From Candidatus Onthousia faecipullorum (GTDB taxonomy: Bacteria; Bacillota_I; Bacilli_A; RF39; UBA660): a DNA stretch of 36,784 nucleotides. The position numbers and the translations under genes were made by a program. Within the stretch, counting starts at the first letter, position 1, and each line of letters starts with the position of its first letter. Of the stretch, positions 8,481-27,980 are shown piece by piece. The stretch lies in assembly GCA_018715925.1 (NCBI GenBank), contig DVKQ01000075.1:1-36784 (forward strand). The letters are read 5' to 3'. Below the pieces are notes generated by a model. That model saw nothing but the letters and a program-made list of their open reading frames with translations. It ran no database searches and was not told the DNA's origin.

Positions 8481-8492
8481 AGAGTGATAACA

Positions 8493-9677
8493 ATGAAAGT
8501 AGTCTTAATGAATCAAAATAAAAAAGTATTGTTAGCAGAAATGGATGGGAGTAATACATTTCAAGAAATATATCAATATTATGATATTAACTATGCACCA
8601 TTATCTTTATATAATGCCTATAACCATAATGAAGAGGTATTAGTTGCATTAAATTCATGGTTTAAAGGTAGGGGTATTCCAGCGTGGAGACAAAATATAG
8701 AAAAGTTATTAGAAAAGTTAAATGTAGTATCTCCTACAGAGCTTTTAAATAAAGCCTATGGATTATCTTTGTCTGATCAATATTGGATTAAGGGTGAAAG
8801 GCAGAATTTGAAATGGAAAGATATAAACTTTTTTATTAATGATTTTGATTATAAAGATTATTTAGATGTATCACTAAATTTTAATTCAAGAGAATCAAGT
8901 ACAATAATTAGTTTGCATTCTCCTAATAATACTACCGATGGGATGGTAAAAAAAGGGTGGATTATTGATAAAGATAATAATAGAGTCTTAGTAAAAGGAG
9001 CATATTCTATATCAGGATTAGAACCAATAAATGAGTGGCTCGCTTCTAAAATTTGTAAAAGGCTTGATTTAGATTATTGTAATTATACTTTAGATATATT
9101 ATCTGGACAATTAGTAAGTATGTGCAAGAATTTTTTAACTCAAGATGAAGAAATTATATCAGCTAGTGATATTATGAATTTAAATAGTGATGATAATCTT
9201 AGTGATTATGAAAAGTATGTTAGTATCTTAGAGTCTTATGGTATTAAAGATGTAAAAAAGAAGTTATCAGATATGTATATAGTTGATTATTTAATGTTAA
9301 ATACAGATAGACATATGAAAAATTATGGAATTATTAGAAATGTTAAGACTTTAAAATGGGAAAGAGTAACGCCTATTTTTGATACAGGAACAAGCCTACA
9401 ATCAGATGTAACACTTCCATATTTAGATTTTGATAATGAAGAATATAAGTTTTTCCATTATCATAATATGACAGTTAATGAGTTAGTTAACTATATAAGT
9501 TTAGAAAAATATGATTTAACAAAATTAGATGGTTTAAAAAATGAATATAAAGAAGTCTTAGAAAAATATTCTGATATAATAGAATTAAATCCCAAAAGAT
9601 TAGAAAGAACAGTAGAGGGTTTTGGTGAAAGAATAGAGTTATTAAAACAAGCAAAGGAAAAATATAAAGATGAGTAA
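8493..9677 (+). CDS. HipA-like kinase domain protein
   Basis: This is a HipA/PI3-4-kinase-like fold protein of 395 residues. The kinase residues expected of the family are visible: a lysine in the nucleotide-binding strand (RVLVKGAYS), the catalytic loop LNTDRHMKNYGI with Asp and Asn, and the metal-binding Asp in IFDTGTSL. HipA proteins phosphorylate protein targets such as glutamyl-tRNA synthetase and act as toxins. Many Bacillota members of this wider family have no tested function, so the toxin role is not assumed. ATG 8493 was chosen over GTG 8484 because GAGAG just upstream fits it. It follows the 7890 gene by 12 bp and is co-transcribed with it. No HipB-like gene is adjacent on either side. 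Confidence 0.75.
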   Translation: MKVVLMNQNKKVLLAEMDGSNTFQEIYQYYDINYAPLSLYNAYNHNEEVLVALNSWFKGRGIPAWRQNIEKLLEKLNVVSPTELLNKAYGLSLSDQYWIKGERQNLKWKDINFFINDFDYKDYLDVSLNFNSRESSTIISLHSPNNTTDGMVKKGWIIDKDNNRVLVKGAYSISGLEPINEWLASKICKRLDLDYCNYTLDILSGQLVSMCKNFLTQDEEIISASDIMNLNSDDNLSDYEKYVSILESYGIKDVKKKLSDMYIVDYLMLNTDRHMKNYGIIRNVKTLKWERVTPIFDTGTSLQSDVTLPYLDFDNEEYKFFHYHNMTVNELVNYISLEKYDLTKLDGLKNEYKEVLEKYSDIIELNPKRLERTVEGFGERIELLKQAKEKYKDE

Positions 9678-9719: not shown

Positions 9720-10577
9720 ATGCAAAGATTTAAAGCTACTAAGGTGGCAAGTTTTTTAGGAATATTTTTTAATTTATTTTTATTTGTAATTAAGTTTAGT
9801 GTATCATTTTTTACCTCAAGTCAAGCGATGATGGCAGATGCTGTTAATAGTTTAGGAGATATATTCTCATCACTTATGACTTTAATAGGTAATAAAATAG
9901 CAAGTAAACCTAGTGATGATGATCATAATTTAGGCCATGGTAAAGCTGAGTATATTTATTCTCTATTAATAAGTATTGTTATTATTGTGGTAGCAGTTAC
10001 ATTATTTAAAGACTCATTAGAATCAATATTTGTTAAGAGTAATTATATCTTTTCATATATGTTAATAGTAGTTTGTCTCATTACTATAGTAGTTAAATTA
10101 TCACTATATTTCTATACTAATAAACTGTCTAAGAGTCTAAATAGTTTGCTACTTAAAGCTAACTCTAAAGACCATTTATATGATGCTATTATTACTACTA
10201 TTAACTTATTATCAATAATATTAACTAGTTTTGGAATTTACTTTGTTGATGGTTTAGTTGGAGTTTTAATTGCCTTATGGATTTTATATAGTGGTCTTAA
10301 GATATTTAAAGAAAGTTATGATGTTTTAATGGATAAAGCGATAGATGATGATACTAAATACAAGGTTTTAGAAGTAGTAAAAAAATATAAAGAAGTAAAG
10401 AAGATAACACACTTTAATGCTACACCAGTAGGATATAAATATCAAATATCTTTTACTATCTTTGTAGATGGTAATATGTCTACTTATGAATCTCATGATA
10501 TTGCTAATAAAATAGAAAGAGAACTTGAAAAGTTTGAAGAAATTTATTTAACAGTAATTCATGTTAATCCAATTTAG
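9720..10577 (+). CDS. Cation diffusion facilitator (CDF) family metal efflux transporter
   Basis: This is a membrane antiporter that exports divalent metals (Zn, Mn, Fe, Co) in exchange for protons. Hydrophobic segments lie near residues 10-32, 38-58, 80-100, 115-132, 152-172 and 176-192, followed by a cytoplasmic C-terminal domain (about 205-285). The site in TM2 reads ADAVNSLGD and the conserved HNLGHGKAEY follows. The second site in TM5 is HLYDA. The TM2 site has Asn where Zn transporters usually carry His, which points towards Mn/Fe rather than Zn. That substrate call is tentative. AGGAG at about 9706-9710 precedes ATG 9720. A TATAAT at 9695-9700 may be a private -10. Confidence 0.9.
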   Translation: MQRFKATKVASFLGIFFNLFLFVIKFSVSFFTSSQAMMADAVNSLGDIFSSLMTLIGNKIASKPSDDDHNLGHGKAEYIYSLLISIVIIVVAVTLFKDSLESIFVKSNYIFSYMLIVVCLITIVVKLSLYFYTNKLSKSLNSLLLKANSKDHLYDAIITTINLLSIILTSFGIYFVDGLVGVLIALWILYSGLKIFKESYDVLMDKAIDDDTKYKVLEVVKKYKEVKKITHFNATPVGYKYQISFTIFVDGNMSTYESHDIANKIERELEKFEEIYLTVIHVNPI

Positions 10578-10593
10578 AAACGAGTGATTATTT

Positions 10594-13188
10594 ATGGGGG
10601 ACAATAATAAATTTAACATTGTAAAGTATTTTGAAGATATAAAAAGACAGTTATATAGTTTAGGTTATGAAAATAAATTAGTAAGTGTTAAAGAAGTAGA
10701 AGATTTATATAATATATATGGATATGGATTTAGTTTAAATACATTTTTAAGAGAAGTTTTAGAAATTGAGACATCGTGGTTTATTCAAGCTAGAGCTAGT
10801 GATAAAAGAGTAACAATATTAAAAATAAAGGATAGATTAACAGATAAGGAAATAATAGAATTAAGTAATAGACTTATAAAACTAGGTTATGCTATGAATA
10901 AAGTTAATTATTTTGAATTAGAAAAAATATATAATAAGTTTGGTAAAAATTTAACTTTAAGAACATTTGCTACTAGAGTTTTAAATCTTAGTTTTGGTAG
11001 TTATGAACAAATGCTGAAACATAGAGATAAAAAATTTATAATATTAAAAAATGTTGGTAATATAGAAAATATTAAGAGAATAATGTTAGATGATGGATAT
11101 GAAAATTATATAATTTCTTCATATTCTAACTTATTAGATTTATATAGTACTTATGGTTATACTTTTACTGAAACTATTTTTGCTACTGAAGTTCTTGGTA
11201 TGTCTTATAATCAATATAGAGTGTTAAAAAGAACAAAAAATAATTATAACGTTAAAGTATTAACTAGAAGTCTAACACTAGAAGAAATAAGTGAAATAAT
11301 TGATATTTTGAAAAAGCAGGGATATGAAAACAAAAAAATTTCTTATAATGATTTTTTAGCTTTGTATAATATCTATGGTGAAAATACTAATATAAAAGAA
11401 TTTTCTATCACTGTCCTTAATATGTCTCTTGATGATTTTAAAACACTTAAATATAATAGAGGAAGTGTGATTATTTCTTTTAAAGATACTAATAAAAAAT
11501 ATAATGCTATAATTGAAAAAATGGTTCAAGATAGATTACTCAATAAATCTATTACTTATAAAGAGCTACAACAATTACATTTTAAATATGCCAAAGAACT
11601 TACTGAAAAAGAGTTTGCCCTAGAAGTACTTGAAATTTCTCTTGATAACTATAGAGCTTGTAAAAAGACTAATAATCCTGCTAGAGTTATAATTTTAAAA
11701 AAGAATATTGAAAAGGAAATAACAAAAATAAAAGAAATATTAATATCTAAAGGTTATACTAATAAAAAGATATCCTATCAAGAATTTCTAAATTTATATA
11801 AACAATATGGTTATTTTTTGAGTGATAGAAAGTTTGCAAATGAAGTTTTAGGAGTTAATTATTCTACATATGATGCATCTAAAACTTTAAAAAGAGATAT
11901 TATTGTTTTACCATTAAAAAATAAACCAATTAAAGAGTTACAAGATATTAAAAAAGCCTTAATTGAATATGGTTATGAAAATAAAGAAATCGATGTAGAA
12001 CAAATAGATATTTTATATGAGTGCTTTGGACATGGAATAACTAAGACTGACTTTATTAATAAAGTTCTAGGAGTAAATCTAGAAAAAGATCAAAAAAAGA
12101 AAGTAATTTTAAAAAAGATTGATATATTAAATGAAGACGAGATGGAGGATTTAAAACAAAAAATATATTCTTTAGGATATTATCATAAAGATATATTAGC
12201 TAGTGAAGTAATAGAATTATATAATAAATATGGAACAGAATTAAGTTTCAAAACATTTAGAAATAGAATTTTAAATATAACTGCTCCTCAATTAAACTTT
12301 GCTAAAAAATATAACTTGTTTATTAGAATTAATGATATAAATGTAGATAATACTATGGAATATATTAGAAATGTATATTTAAATGACTATAGATATTATA
12401 GTAAAGAAGAAATAATAATGCTATGTAACTACTATAATATTAGTTTTGATGACTTTATATATTATGTTTATTTAAAAAAATATAAAAAATTGCATGAGAA
12501 ATACTTTAATAGATATAAAGAAATTTTAGTTAAACATGGAAAACTATGGATTGGTAATGGGATAGTTGATATGAATATGTTACAAAAATATTATGATAAA
12601 ATATCTAAAAGTATTAGGCAAGCTATTACGCATTTAAAAAATGAAAAGTATTATCTTTATAAAAACCAAAGCGAGTATAATGATGTATTTCAAGATGCTT
12701 TATTATTTTTTATGGAAAATGGTTCAGAAATTCAAAATAATTATATGGTATATGAAGATGATTATAATTGGGAGAGTTATTTACAAGGAAAAATAAAGAA
12801 ACATTTGATGTATAAATATTATGCAAAAGTTAGAAAATATATACCTTATGCAAGCAGATATTATAATAAATATTCAGATGAAGAACGGGAATTTGTTGAT
12901 GAGAATACAGATACTGCAATTAATGCTATAGATAATTTGCAGATAGATAATCTAAAAAGAGTTGATGAATGTATTACTAGTTTAGGCAATTTGATATTAG
13001 AAGGATATAGTATAAAAGAATCTAAAGAATTAATATGTAAAAAAATGAATATTGATGAAATTACTTTAAAGGAAATTATGGAAATATATATAGAGGAACA
13101 TAATATTATTAATTTTGATATTAGTGTTTTAGAATTTGGTGGTGATACTGAAAATAATAGAAATTATCAAAAAGTTAAAGTAAAGTAG
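10594..13188 (+). CDS. Large repeat protein (eight ~72-residue repeats) with sigma-70-like C-terminal region
   Basis: This 864-residue soluble protein is not one I recognise. Residues ~9-579 are eight divergent repeats of ~72 residues. Each has the pattern LxxxGYxNKxISYxEhxxLYxxYG, then a helix-turn-helix-like LSxxxFAxxVLxIS, then Y and a basic strand ending ILK. The last 285 residues are different. Residues ~694-745 (EYNDVFQDALLFF, WESYLQGKIKKHLMYKYY) resemble sigma-70 region 2 (the xDLxQExxLxLL and FxxYLxxxIRxxL patterns). Residues ~789-834 (SLGNLILEGYSIKESKEL, CKKMNIDEITLKEIM) could be a region-4-like helix-turn-helix. The start ATG 10594 has only a weak GAGTG upstream. It lies 16 bp after the CDF gene. 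A repeat-bearing DNA-binding or transcription protein is inferred; a direct sigma function is not shown. Confidence 0.8.
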   Translation: MGDNNKFNIVKYFEDIKRQLYSLGYENKLVSVKEVEDLYNIYGYGFSLNTFLREVLEIETSWFIQARASDKRVTILKIKDRLTDKEIIELSNRLIKLGYAMNKVNYFELEKIYNKFGKNLTLRTFATRVLNLSFGSYEQMLKHRDKKFIILKNVGNIENIKRIMLDDGYENYIISSYSNLLDLYSTYGYTFTETIFATEVLGMSYNQYRVLKRTKNNYNVKVLTRSLTLEEISEIIDILKKQGYENKKISYNDFLALYNIYGENTNIKEFSITVLNMSLDDFKTLKYNRGSVIISFKDTNKKYNAIIEKMVQDRLLNKSITYKELQQLHFKYAKELTEKEFALEVLEISLDNYRACKKTNNPARVIILKKNIEKEITKIKEILISKGYTNKKISYQEFLNLYKQYGYFLSDRKFANEVLGVNYSTYDASKTLKRDIIVLPLKNKPIKELQDIKKALIEYGYENKEIDVEQIDILYECFGHGITKTDFINKVLGVNLEKDQKKKVILKKIDILNEDEMEDLKQKIYSLGYYHKDILASEVIELYNKYGTELSFKTFRNRILNITAPQLNFAKKYNLFIRINDINVDNTMEYIRNVYLNDYRYYSKEEIIMLCNYYNISFDDFIYYVYLKKYKKLHEKYFNRYKEILVKHGKLWIGNGIVDMNMLQKYYDKISKSIRQAITHLKNEKYYLYKNQSEYNDVFQDALLFFMENGSEIQNNYMVYEDDYNWESYLQGKIKKHLMYKYYAKVRKYIPYASRYYNKYSDEEREFVDENTDTAINAIDNLQIDNLKRVDECITSLGNLILEGYSIKESKELICKKMNIDEITLKEIMEIYIEEHNIINFDISVLEFGGDTENNRNYQKVKVK
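10618..12330 (+). repeat. Region encoding eight ~72-aa protein repeats
   Basis: Anchor points of the units are the GY/GYxNK motifs (YSLGYENK, IKLGYAMN, LDDGYENY, KKQGYENK, VQDRLLNK, ISKGYTNK, IEYGYENK, YSLGYYHK) and the following LYxxYG-FxxxVL cores. DNA-level identity between units is low, so the repeats are old. Confidence 0.8.
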
Positions 13189-13362
13189 AGAATCACATTG
13201 ATTATACATGATAATATTTATAATTATGAAAGCTTGTGATAATGTAATTGATTTTGCTTTTACAACTAATTATATAGAAACTGGAGTTGTTCTAAAAAGA
13301 AAATATTTCCGTGGTTTAGGAGAAATAAATAGTTATTTTTCCTTTTAAATGCAACAAAAGTG

Positions 13363-13371
13363 TGATATAAT
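13363..13371 (+). promoter_or_regulatory. Extended -10 promoter of ppaC
   Basis: TGATATAAT (TGnTATAAT) ends 24 bases before the ppaC start, with no good -35. The 200-base gap before it (13189-13395) otherwise holds only a 46-codon ORF (13208-13348) without clear support. Confidence 0.7.
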
Positions 13372-13395
13372 CTACAGGTAGAAAGAAGGATTAAT

Positions 13396-15018
13396 ATGGA
13401 AAAAATATATGTTTTTGGGCATCGTAAACCAGATACAGATTCAGTTAGTGCAGCGATAAGTTATGCTTATTTAAAAAAACAATTAGGTTTTAATGTAGAA
13501 CCTCGGGTATTAAGTGCAGTTAATAAAGAGACTAAATATGCTTTAAATTACTTTAAAGTAAAAGAACCGGCCTATTTAAATGATGTTAAATTACAACTTA
13601 AAGACGTTAATTATCATAAGGGATATTTTTTAAATGAAAAGAAATCTATCTTTGATAGTTATATTTATATGTTAAATGAAGGATTAACTGGTGTACCAAT
13701 AGTAGATGATAAAAATAAGTTTCAAGGAATAGTTACCATTAAAGACTTAGCTCATGCTTTTATCGATACTAAAATAGAAGAGCTTGAAACTAGTTATGAT
13801 AATTTACTTAATGTTTTAAATGCTGAAGAAGTAAATAGAGTTGATGATGAGATTATTGGTAATATCTTAGCAGCTTCATATCGTAGTACAACCTTTATTA
13901 ATACAGTTAATCTTACTAGTGATGATATCTTAATAGTTGGAGATAGACATAGTGTTATAGAGTATGCCGTTAATTCTAAAGTTAAGATGATAATACTATC
14001 GGGATATAGTGAAATAAAAGATGAACATATTAAAATTGCTAAAGAAAATGGTGTTAATATTATTAGAAGTAGTTATGATACTTATCATATCGCTAAATTA
14101 GTTAGTTTATCTAATTATATTAGAACAATGAAGAGAACTACTAAAGATGCAGTTTATTTTGATGAAAATAGTTATGTTGATGATATATTAGATGTTAATA
14201 AGAAACTAAGACATACTAATTATCCTGTTATTAATGGAAGAACTGGTAAATGTTTAGGACTTTTAAGAATTACTGATTTAGATTCTAAAAATCCTAAAAA
14301 AGTAATATTAGTTGACCATAATGAAGAAAAACAAAGTGCTGAAGGTTTAAATGAAGCAGAGATTGTTGAAATAGTAGATCATCATAATTTAAGTAGTTTA
14401 TCTACTCCTAGTCCTATTAATTTTAGAAATATGGCAGTAGGATCAAGTAATACAATAATTTATTCTTTATATAAAGAAAGAAATATTCTAATACCTAAAG
14501 AAATAGCTGGGCTTATGTTATCAGGAATTTTATCAGATACATTAATACTTAAATCTCCTACAACTACTGAATTAGATAGAACAGCAGTTAAGGAGTTATC
14601 TAGTATAGCAGAAGTTAATTATGAAGAATATGGTCTTAATTTAATTAAAGCAGGTACATCTCTTGATGGTATGACTCATGAAGATGTATTATATAATGAT
14701 TTTAAACTTTATACAGTAGATGATAAGACTTTGGGTATAGGACAATTCTTTACTACTAATTTTGATGAAATAGAAAAAGATATGGAAAATTATCTTAATA
14801 CATTAGATAGAGAAGCAGAGGGTAATAACTATTCTTTAATCGCTTTATATATAACAGATATTATTAAGAACGGTTCTTATGTTCTATTTAATAGGAAAGC
14901 TAAAGATATTATGGATAATGCTTATGACAAAGATATGAGTGAAGGAGAATATTTACAAGACTGTGTATCTCGTAAGAAAAATGTTGTTCCAGTAATAATG
15001 GCAAGTTTTGAGAAATAG
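13396..15018 (+). CDS. ppaC: Manganese-dependent inorganic pyrophosphatase, CBS-domain (family II) type
   Basis: It hydrolyses PPi to phosphate in the cytosol, pulling biosynthetic reactions forward. DHH-family metal ligands are visible: GHRKPDTDS (His9, Asp13, Asp15), VDHN and the VDHHN signature (about residues 310-335), then GSSNTIIY and the DHHA2 C-terminal domain. Between the first catalytic motifs and VDHN lies a regulatory insert with two CBS domains (IFDSYIYMLNEGLTGVPIVD near 77-95; VDDILDVNKKL near 260) and a DRTGG-like middle part. This gives 540 residues versus ~310 for the plain enzyme. Known for the family: CBS-PPases are inhibited by AMP/ADP and activated by ATP or Ap4A. AGAAAGGA precedes ATG 13396, and a strong terminator directly follows the stop. 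Confidence 0.95.
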   Translation: MEKIYVFGHRKPDTDSVSAAISYAYLKKQLGFNVEPRVLSAVNKETKYALNYFKVKEPAYLNDVKLQLKDVNYHKGYFLNEKKSIFDSYIYMLNEGLTGVPIVDDKNKFQGIVTIKDLAHAFIDTKIEELETSYDNLLNVLNAEEVNRVDDEIIGNILAASYRSTTFINTVNLTSDDILIVGDRHSVIEYAVNSKVKMIILSGYSEIKDEHIKIAKENGVNIIRSSYDTYHIAKLVSLSNYIRTMKRTTKDAVYFDENSYVDDILDVNKKLRHTNYPVINGRTGKCLGLLRITDLDSKNPKKVILVDHNEEKQSAEGLNEAEIVEIVDHHNLSSLSTPSPINFRNMAVGSSNTIIYSLYKERNILIPKEIAGLMLSGILSDTLILKSPTTTELDRTAVKELSSIAEVNYEEYGLNLIKAGTSLDGMTHEDVLYNDFKLYTVDDKTLGIGQFFTTNFDEIEKDMENYLNTLDREAEGNNYSLIALYITDIIKNGSYVLFNRKAKDIMDNAYDKDMSEGEYLQDCVSRKKNVVPVIMASFEK

Positions 15019-27392: not shown

Positions 27393-27980
27393 ATGTTTGA
27401 TAATTTTATTGATGATGAGACATTTTATGATAGAGAGTATTCAAATGATAAATTTCCTCTTACCCCTTATTATCTAAGTTTTAGAAATTGTACCTTTACT
27501 AATATAGATTTTAGTAATAGTGATTTAGAAAGAGTAGATTTTATGTCATGTAAATTTAACTATTGCGACTTTCGTAATGCTAACTTTAGTAATAATGGTA
27601 TAAAAGATTTAACATTTATTAATTGTAATCTACTAGGAATAGACTTTAGTAATAGTATGCTTATAGATTCTACTATTAATGATTCTAACTTAGATTATAG
27701 TAACTTTACTTTAGTTAAGTTTAATAACTTTAAATTCAATAACTGCTCTATAAAAAGTTCAAGTTTTGATGAAGTTAAATTTAAGAAGATAGAATTTAAT
27801 AATTGTAATTTACAAGAAGTAGAGTTTTTAAATACATCTTTAAATAAAATAAAACTAAATACTTGTAATATTAAAGGCTTAAAAGTCTCTTTAAATAATC
27901 TAAAAGGGGCAGTAGTTAACATAAATCAAGCTTTAGACTTAAGTCTATTACTAGGTATTAAAATAGAAGAGAGTGATTAG
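27393..27980 (+). CDS. Pentapeptide-repeat protein
   Basis: Most of the 195 residues follow the A(D/N)LxX pentapeptide pattern in its F-rich variant: CTFTNIDFSNSDLERVDF, CKFNYCDFRNANFSN, then CNLLGIDFSNS, SNLDYSNFTLVKFNNF and CNLQEVEFLN. This folds as a right-handed quadrilateral beta-helix. Some members (Qnr, MfpA) mimic DNA and protect gyrase, but most have no known role and nothing here points to gyrase protection. It lies 4 bp after the coiled-coil gene and overlaps the start region of the GDPD gene. Confidence 0.9.
   Translation: MFDNFIDDETFYDREYSNDKFPLTPYYLSFRNCTFTNIDFSNSDLERVDFMSCKFNYCDFRNANFSNNGIKDLTFINCNLLGIDFSNSMLIDSTINDSNLDYSNFTLVKFNNFKFNNCSIKSSSFDEVKFKKIEFNNCNLQEVEFLNTSLNKIKLNTCNIKGLKVSLNNLKGAVVNINQALDLSLLLGIKIEESD

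Follow-up and report, generated by a model that had tools for sequence, protein, structure and literature searches.

An eight-repeat array joined to a sigma-like C-terminal region: a candidate modular recruiter of RNA polymerase

The gene studied here lies in a window of 36,784 nucleotides (the whole stretch of DNA that was analysed), part of contig C52 of a 1.4 Mb draft genome. It occupies positions 10594..13188 of the + strand, and its reading frame, unbroken from an ATG start to a stop codon, encodes an 864-aa protein with an array of eight repeats followed by a sigma-like C-terminal region; the strand opposite 10594-13188 carries no long frame. The neighbouring genes, which we named by reading of their sequences, are a cation-efflux-type transporter gene upstream (9720-10577) and a ppaC-type pyrophosphatase gene downstream (13396-15018). 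Two other genomes carry an intact array gene (L007:3737-6328 (-) and L052:2606-5242 (-)) that has retained its full length at 41-50% identity, and the comparison of intact orthologs gives a divergence of 0.35/0.26/0.43 at the three codon positions, the pattern of a translated gene. The whole 864-aa protein has no match above cut-off in Pfam, NCBIfam or PHROG, and the same searches found no nuclease, ATPase or recombinase domain in it; a weak PDB sequence match (9r2r) was discarded because it appears compositional. Elsewhere in the window, two neighbouring ORFs at 22-681 have an almost identical stretch in common (LERLGLDD.FGLAYDNELMQKKMINTARNWGYDDGKEAGARAKEIEIA) and look like tandem remnants of what we take to be Rpn/PD-(D/E)XK-type transposase tails, a 397-aa ORF at 8484-9677 is presumably HipA-type kinase-like, with no adjoining HipB partner evident, and a 195-aa ORF at 27393-27980 presumably encodes a pentapeptide-repeat protein-like product.

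A sequence-only reading of this DNA had described eight repeats of about 72 residues and had proposed a repeat HMM as a check. That the repeats are real is borne out by self-comparison of the protein, in which diagonals score as high as 211, at offsets between 68 and 145 residues, and far exceed those of 20 shuffles (<=57), and by the HMM, which finds exactly eight copies in the window protein (E 1e-23 to 1e-29). The sequences used in building the HMM match it by construction; it also finds eight copies in an ortholog that was left out of the building and six in a distant relative. The length of 72 residues holds for the spacing of the copies (68-74 residues) but not for the copies themselves, which span only 60-68 residues, the remainder being linker. 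As delimited by the HMM on the + strand, they are repeat 1 at 10630..10824 (residues 13-77), repeat 2 at 10852..11052 (87-153), repeat 3 at 11062..11265 (157-224), repeat 4 at 11287..11487 (232-298), repeat 5 at 11500..11703 (303-370), repeat 6 at 11719..11922 (376-443), repeat 7 at 11938..12117 (449-508), which the alignment also shows to be shortened, with a weak recognition helix, and repeat 8 at 12142..12336 (517-581). A search of the same genome found no second repeat array.

An AlphaFold2 model of the full-length protein, built from three sequences, gives most repeats the order alpha-beta-alpha-alpha-alpha-beta, with a pLDDT of about 75-88 over most of the array. In an ungapped alignment on the Cro/434 pattern, the repeat segment L-G-I-N-Y-R-N-Y-Q-K-M-R-T-Q-G pairs with L-G-V-Y-Q-S-A-I-N-K-A-I-H-A-G of Cro. 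In the near-identical arrays of relatives (G003, G858 and G266), the columns that vary are those of the DNA-contacting residues in 434 repressor and Cro, positions that we take to include T27, Q28, Q29 and Q33 of the former, and the buried columns stay fixed. The columns matching these four residues have a mean entropy of 1.20 (versus 0.45 for the repeat core), a value that 100,000 randomly drawn column sets never matched; they were picked after the variability had been seen, so that this figure is descriptive. In G003, G858 and G266, the repeats within one protein are near-identical and, outside the linkers, their variation centres on the last helix. Among four 8-repeat proteins, repeats of the same index match each other best in 22 of 24 comparisons, and in the 8-repeat orthologs the 434-contact columns are repeat-specific yet conserved, the most repeat-specific column being the equivalent of Q29. 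A long target site that is itself conserved would be expected to leave such index-wise conservation together with repeat-specific contact columns, and the combination of hypervariable, near-identical arrays with conserved repeat-specific columns in orthologs has the appearance of a modular DNA reader.

The repeats of one relative exceed the Pfam cut-off for the HTH family PF13022 in three stretches. Single repeats show weak HTH similarity only (HTH_26 and HTH_50, about 0.02), with no consistent match to HTH families in Pfam, so that the assignment of the fold rests on the model and on the pattern of variation. The presence of a helix-turn-helix in each repeat, as originally suggested, agrees with the modelled secondary structure and with the variation at the 434-contact columns for the array in general, but repeat 7 has no good recognition helix. 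We regard the repeats as HTH modules that are putatively DNA-reading, a conclusion that is supported, not proven. Matches of the repetitive relatives to acetolactate synthase, villin, S48 peptidase and the like were discarded as sums of many short matches, and single weak repeat matches to CYTH-like proteins in genomes of the same genus were judged coincidental. The end of two such proteins, which we take from their appearance to be CYTH-like (KKLGYNEDKITTLDVDSIYKKYGYNL; L026:1087-1617(+) and L028:1480-2094(-)), is similar to the beginning of the window repeats, probably by coincidence.

Beyond the array, the alignments define a connector (12337..12558, + strand, residues 582-655) that contains a family-wide L(W/F)IG motif (12544-12555, + strand, residues 651-654). 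Structural look-ups and profiles then place sigma region-2-like helices at 12568..12825 (+ strand, residues 659-744) and an HTH-like segment resembling region 3/4 at 12946..13113 (+ strand, residues about 785-840). In the full-length model, residues 659-744 superpose on residues 372-445 of E. coli sigma-70 (Z 5.8, rmsd 2.6, 74 residues), a structural Z of 5-7 being also reached by unrelated helical proteins; they match region 2 of AlgU, SigH/E and mycobacterial SigA as well, and residues 784-840 align with sigma-type or other HTH domains. When the C-terminal region was modelled alone, sigma factors made up 13 of the best 14 structural rows, which include ECF sigma factors across region 2 and region 4 jointly at an rmsd near 25, meaning that the relative placing of the region-2-like and region-4-like parts is unreproduced in that model. 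Confidence in these C-terminal models is low (pLDDT mostly 45-65, mean 50), and Foldseek found no match at E below 0.001 with either the full-length or the C-terminal model, the former giving weak EF-hand-like and HEAT-like rows. By inspection, D697, Q700, W726 and Y729 align with D, Q, F and Y in region 2.2-2.3 of the RpoD of the same genome. The structural match and the sequence motif imply one register: 744 falls on 445 (an offset of 299) in the former, and W726 falls on F427 and Y729 on Y430 in the latter, which also puts D697 on D403 and Q700 on Q406 in what we take to be the E. coli sigma-70 numbering; the motif spacing was confirmed on the genome's own RpoD. RpoD has a tryptophan pair (WW) that serves in promoter melting; the window protein has GK in its place.

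Profile comparisons point in the same direction. A first hhalign comparison of the C-terminal profile with the sigma factors of the same genome was not significant and rose above all shuffles once members had been added: the profile of 15 C-termini scores 26.0 against region 2 of RpoD (best of 60 column shuffles, 15.1), and the same profile scores 16.2 against sigma region 4 (shuffles <=12.0), the regions being in the correct order. With the C-termini of the HTH-array type alone, the score against sigma region 2 was reached by 1 of 60 shuffles and is not clearly separated. The two best matches of the C-terminal profile in the whole PDB sequence set are SigA proteins, at a non-significant E of about 0.2. 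At E values up to 10, the Pfam matches listed for the 15 C-termini do not include Sigma70, and the genome's true sigma factors do match the Pfam Sigma70 profiles. The sequence-only reading had seen a likeness to sigma region 2 and perhaps to region 4 at the end of the protein, quoting stretches (YNDVFQDALLFF and WESYLQGKIKKHL) that do occur in it, and had proposed structure prediction as a further check. Its region 2 gains support that is consistent but not decisive from the structural rows, from the common register and from a profile score that none of 60 shuffles reached, with the reservation that Pfam Sigma70 is absent from all 15 lists and that the prediction of residues 659-744 is of low confidence; its region 4 survives as an HTH-like element, subject to the same low confidence. 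Taken together, the C-terminal region probably has a sigma-derived fold, and strict membership of the window protein in the sigma-70 family is not established.

The same C-terminal domain also follows an entirely different array. In G262, G156, G121, G373 (two proteins), G185 and G819, it is preceded by repeats of 31 or 33 residues (L053:1-2031(+), L074:2164-3909(+), L100:2137-5076(-), L101:1228-3423(+), L102:2-1129(+), L103:2425-4722(-) and L104:2014-3150(-)); array and tail are in different reading frames in G156, and G262 has an additional, broken copy. These repeats follow the pattern CPxILAxGKSxEIxxILxLLExKG, with 21 anchored copies in one protein, and their most variable positions are 16, flanked by the invariant A and G-K, and 12, which follows the invariant C-P, a hypervariability that looks TALE-like in its distribution. 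They match neither mTERF nor TALE proteins in the PDB by sequence, nor the Pfam mTERF profile. The tails of the two array types align with each other in hhalign over 203 columns (probability 98.5%, E 2.2e-15) with reversed decoys silent, and the tail HMMs cross-match in both directions, down to 1e-14 at Z 100,000; the homology of the tails across both kinds of protein is secure from these alignments. That two unrelated hypervariable arrays sit on one tail is our strongest argument, and suggests that the arrays serve as interchangeable readers for a common effector, the tail. A candidate third array type in G069 (73-aa repeats, L075) was rejected, as its weak match is internal and not at the C-terminal domain. 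The L075 protein (L075:1-2631(+), 876 aa, about seven 73-aa repeats, EEEYREALEIWKRENPDKEYRDIP..., with matches to Pfam DUF7738) possibly represents another repeat-array family in the same bacterial family.

The distribution of the array gene is patchy. Of 40 relatives searched with the full-length protein, its own genome counted among them, 3 gave a match: that genome itself, G001 (a syntenic ortholog at 50% identity) and G003 (a distant relative); within the genus, intact relatives occur in 2 of the 34 other species and four sites are empty, and a broken relative is found in another genus. When profiles of the C-terminal region and of the repeats were run more widely, against as many as 395 genomes in a single search, further members came to light in additional genera of this bacterial family. 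Among them, G868 has the same 8-repeat protein interrupted by a stop codon, G266 has array repeats at a contig end, and G858 has two tandem array genes with 4 + 6 near-identical repeats in the same neighbourhood as in G003. A pair of tandem array genes of this kind (L073:3294-7310 (+), 4 + 6 repeats), whose recognition helices differ, would be useful for decoding. In G401, the 8-repeat protein is encoded within a region holding serine recombinase and MobV-like genes; in that region (L064:4325-13158) the array gene lies between two serine recombinase genes and MobV-like mobilisation/relaxase genes, as if it were cargo of an integrated mobile element. No conserved partner gene accompanies the copies, and searches of phage, plasmid and viral contig collections gave no match.

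At the site itself, the gap between the transporter gene and ppaC measures 2.8 kb in the window and contains the array gene. In four genomes of the same genus (L110, L111, L117 and L118), the end of the transporter gene is followed by ppaC after about 60 bases with nothing between, and several others have differing short inserts here (window 10578-13395; L106-L124); the window stretch directly upstream of ppaC resembles the insert end in L112 and L120. Since these gaps are empty or differently filled within the genus, the array gene looks like variable-site cargo. The transporter-ppaC gap is an insertion hot spot, and the array gene is accessory.

Our preferred reading, to which we give a probability of roughly 0.55, is that the window protein is a sequence-directed, sigma-like recruiter of RNA polymerase with an interchangeable DNA-reading array. 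Each of the eight small HTH modules, held on short linkers, would read a few base pairs through its recognition helix, so that the whole array would recognise a long, specific DNA site, a view that the patterns of variation and the predicted fold support. The C-terminal 280 residues would be a diverged sigma-70-type unit, made up like an ECF sigma factor of a region 2 and a succeeding HTH, and we infer that this unit docks on the core polymerase clamp. Polymerase would thus be brought to, or held at, promoters chosen by the array, in place of ordinary -35/-10 recognition. The binding of DNA, the binding of polymerase and the choice of promoter are each presumed steps. Across the bacterial family, a single C-terminal unit occurs with two or more unrelated arrays, which suggests that reading head and tail are exchangeable modules, and because relatives keep the tail with this array or with an unrelated one, the system may be a natural means of steering transcription to chosen sequences. 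We would extend this only tentatively to a modular sigma-like class, in which a code-bearing repeat array, made of tandem HTHs or of mTERF/TALE-like repeats, picks the promoter in place of sigma regions 2.4 and 4, and in which arrays evolve by repeat duplication and changes of a few residues and are swapped on a common polymerase-binding tail.

A protein of this build could also have ceased to initiate, and act as a site-specific repressor, a roadblock, or a pausing or anti-termination factor whose sigma-derived tail may still touch RNA polymerase, in the manner of mTERF or GafYZ in other organisms. The evidence from the array (contact-column variation and repeat-specific conservation) applies just as well to such a factor; pTERF proteins bind specific DNA with no sigma role reported (PMC11417379), and GafYZ binds DNA and polymerase and acts by activation and anti-termination (PMC11150451). 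The promoter-melting residues are not conserved in the window protein, and the loss of this aromatic pair makes a role in recruitment, pausing or anti-termination a serious rival. On the other hand, the order of region 2 and HTH is retained in both array types, which suggests selection on the polymerase-facing unit as such, and on balance we consider a non-initiating factor possible, though somewhat unlikely.

The patchy distribution, the insertion in a hot spot, the copy between serine recombinase and MobV-like relaxase genes and the absence of a conserved partner gene would also suit an array protein of a mobile or selfish element that serves to partition plasmids, to control replication, to target recombination or to defend against invading DNA, its helical C-terminal domain merely resembling sigma factors. 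The phage and plasmid collections without matches, the lack of nuclease, ATPase and recombinase domains and the ranking of sigma factors above other helical proteins in both models make this quite unlikely. Even less probable is that the repeats form a protein- or RNA-binding helical scaffold, that the tail is an unrelated helical bundle and that the likeness to sigma and HTH is due to chance. The lack of a significant Foldseek match, the EF-hand-like and HEAT-like structural rows and the lack of a Pfam match above cut-off would fit such a scaffold; it is opposed by variability that sits on DNA-contact columns with other columns fixed, by a sigma fit of the combined profile that exceeds all shuffles and by one tail common to two unrelated arrays with hypervariable positions.

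If true, the sequence-directed recruiter would be a modular promoter selector that could be retargeted by repeat change, whereas sigma factors otherwise rely on fixed domains to read promoters. A repeat array in control of a sigma-like core might also yield programmable starters of bacterial transcription, and tandem HTHs with hypervariable recognition helices would be a new, code-like scaffold for DNA reading.

Among known systems, the tail is closest to sigma-70 factors, especially those of the ECF type (SigH, SigL, AlgU), with which it shares the spacing of the D..Q and aromatic motif of region 2.2-2.3 and, as predicted by the models, the order of a region-2-like part and a C-terminal HTH; it differs from them in having no significant profile match and no promoter-melting tryptophans. 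We know of no sigma factor with an N-terminal array of eight HTHs. The repeats recall the Cro/C1-type HTH of 434 repressor and lambda Cro in the length and hydrophobic pattern of the recognition helix, but the window family has six to eight tandem copies per chain, with an extra helix and strands. TAL effectors, STAR and TALE-like proteins likewise consist of near-identical repeats with a few hypervariable positions each. Their repeats are of 33-35 aa with a variable di-residue in a loop, whereas those of the window protein have 60-68 aa, vary in a helix, adopt a predicted HTH fold with beta strands and contain no TALE repeat sequence; the sigma-like tail stands where TALEs carry activation or secretion signals.

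The pTERF proteins are prokaryotic mTERF-like tandem repeat proteins with short helical units from uncultured gut Bacillota (Hu et al., 2024; PMC11417379), and two members are reported to bind specific DNA; the paper that describes them does not contain the word sigma and mentions no sigma-like C-terminal domain. The sister 31-33-aa arrays (L053, L074, L100-L104) look like pTERF by description and resemble the mTERF motif (a three-helix unit of about 30 aa with proline 8 and hydrophobics at 11, 18 and 25) in their C-P followed by I-L. This motif is missing from the window repeats, whose 60-68-aa units are HTH-like and not mTERF-like. The gene transfer agent regulators GafA/GafYZ combine DNA-binding and RNA-polymerase-contacting parts in one protein or pair (PMC11150451), a likeness by description to the window protein, and have no tandem array. 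In the open-access journal literature, we found no description of a tandem-repeat or HTH array fused to a sigma-like tail, in keeping, as is the lack of library matches above cut-off, with the original impression that the protein belongs to no named family. DNA-reading repeat arrays and sigma-like factors are each known as parts, and there is a fair chance that their combination in one protein represents a new class.
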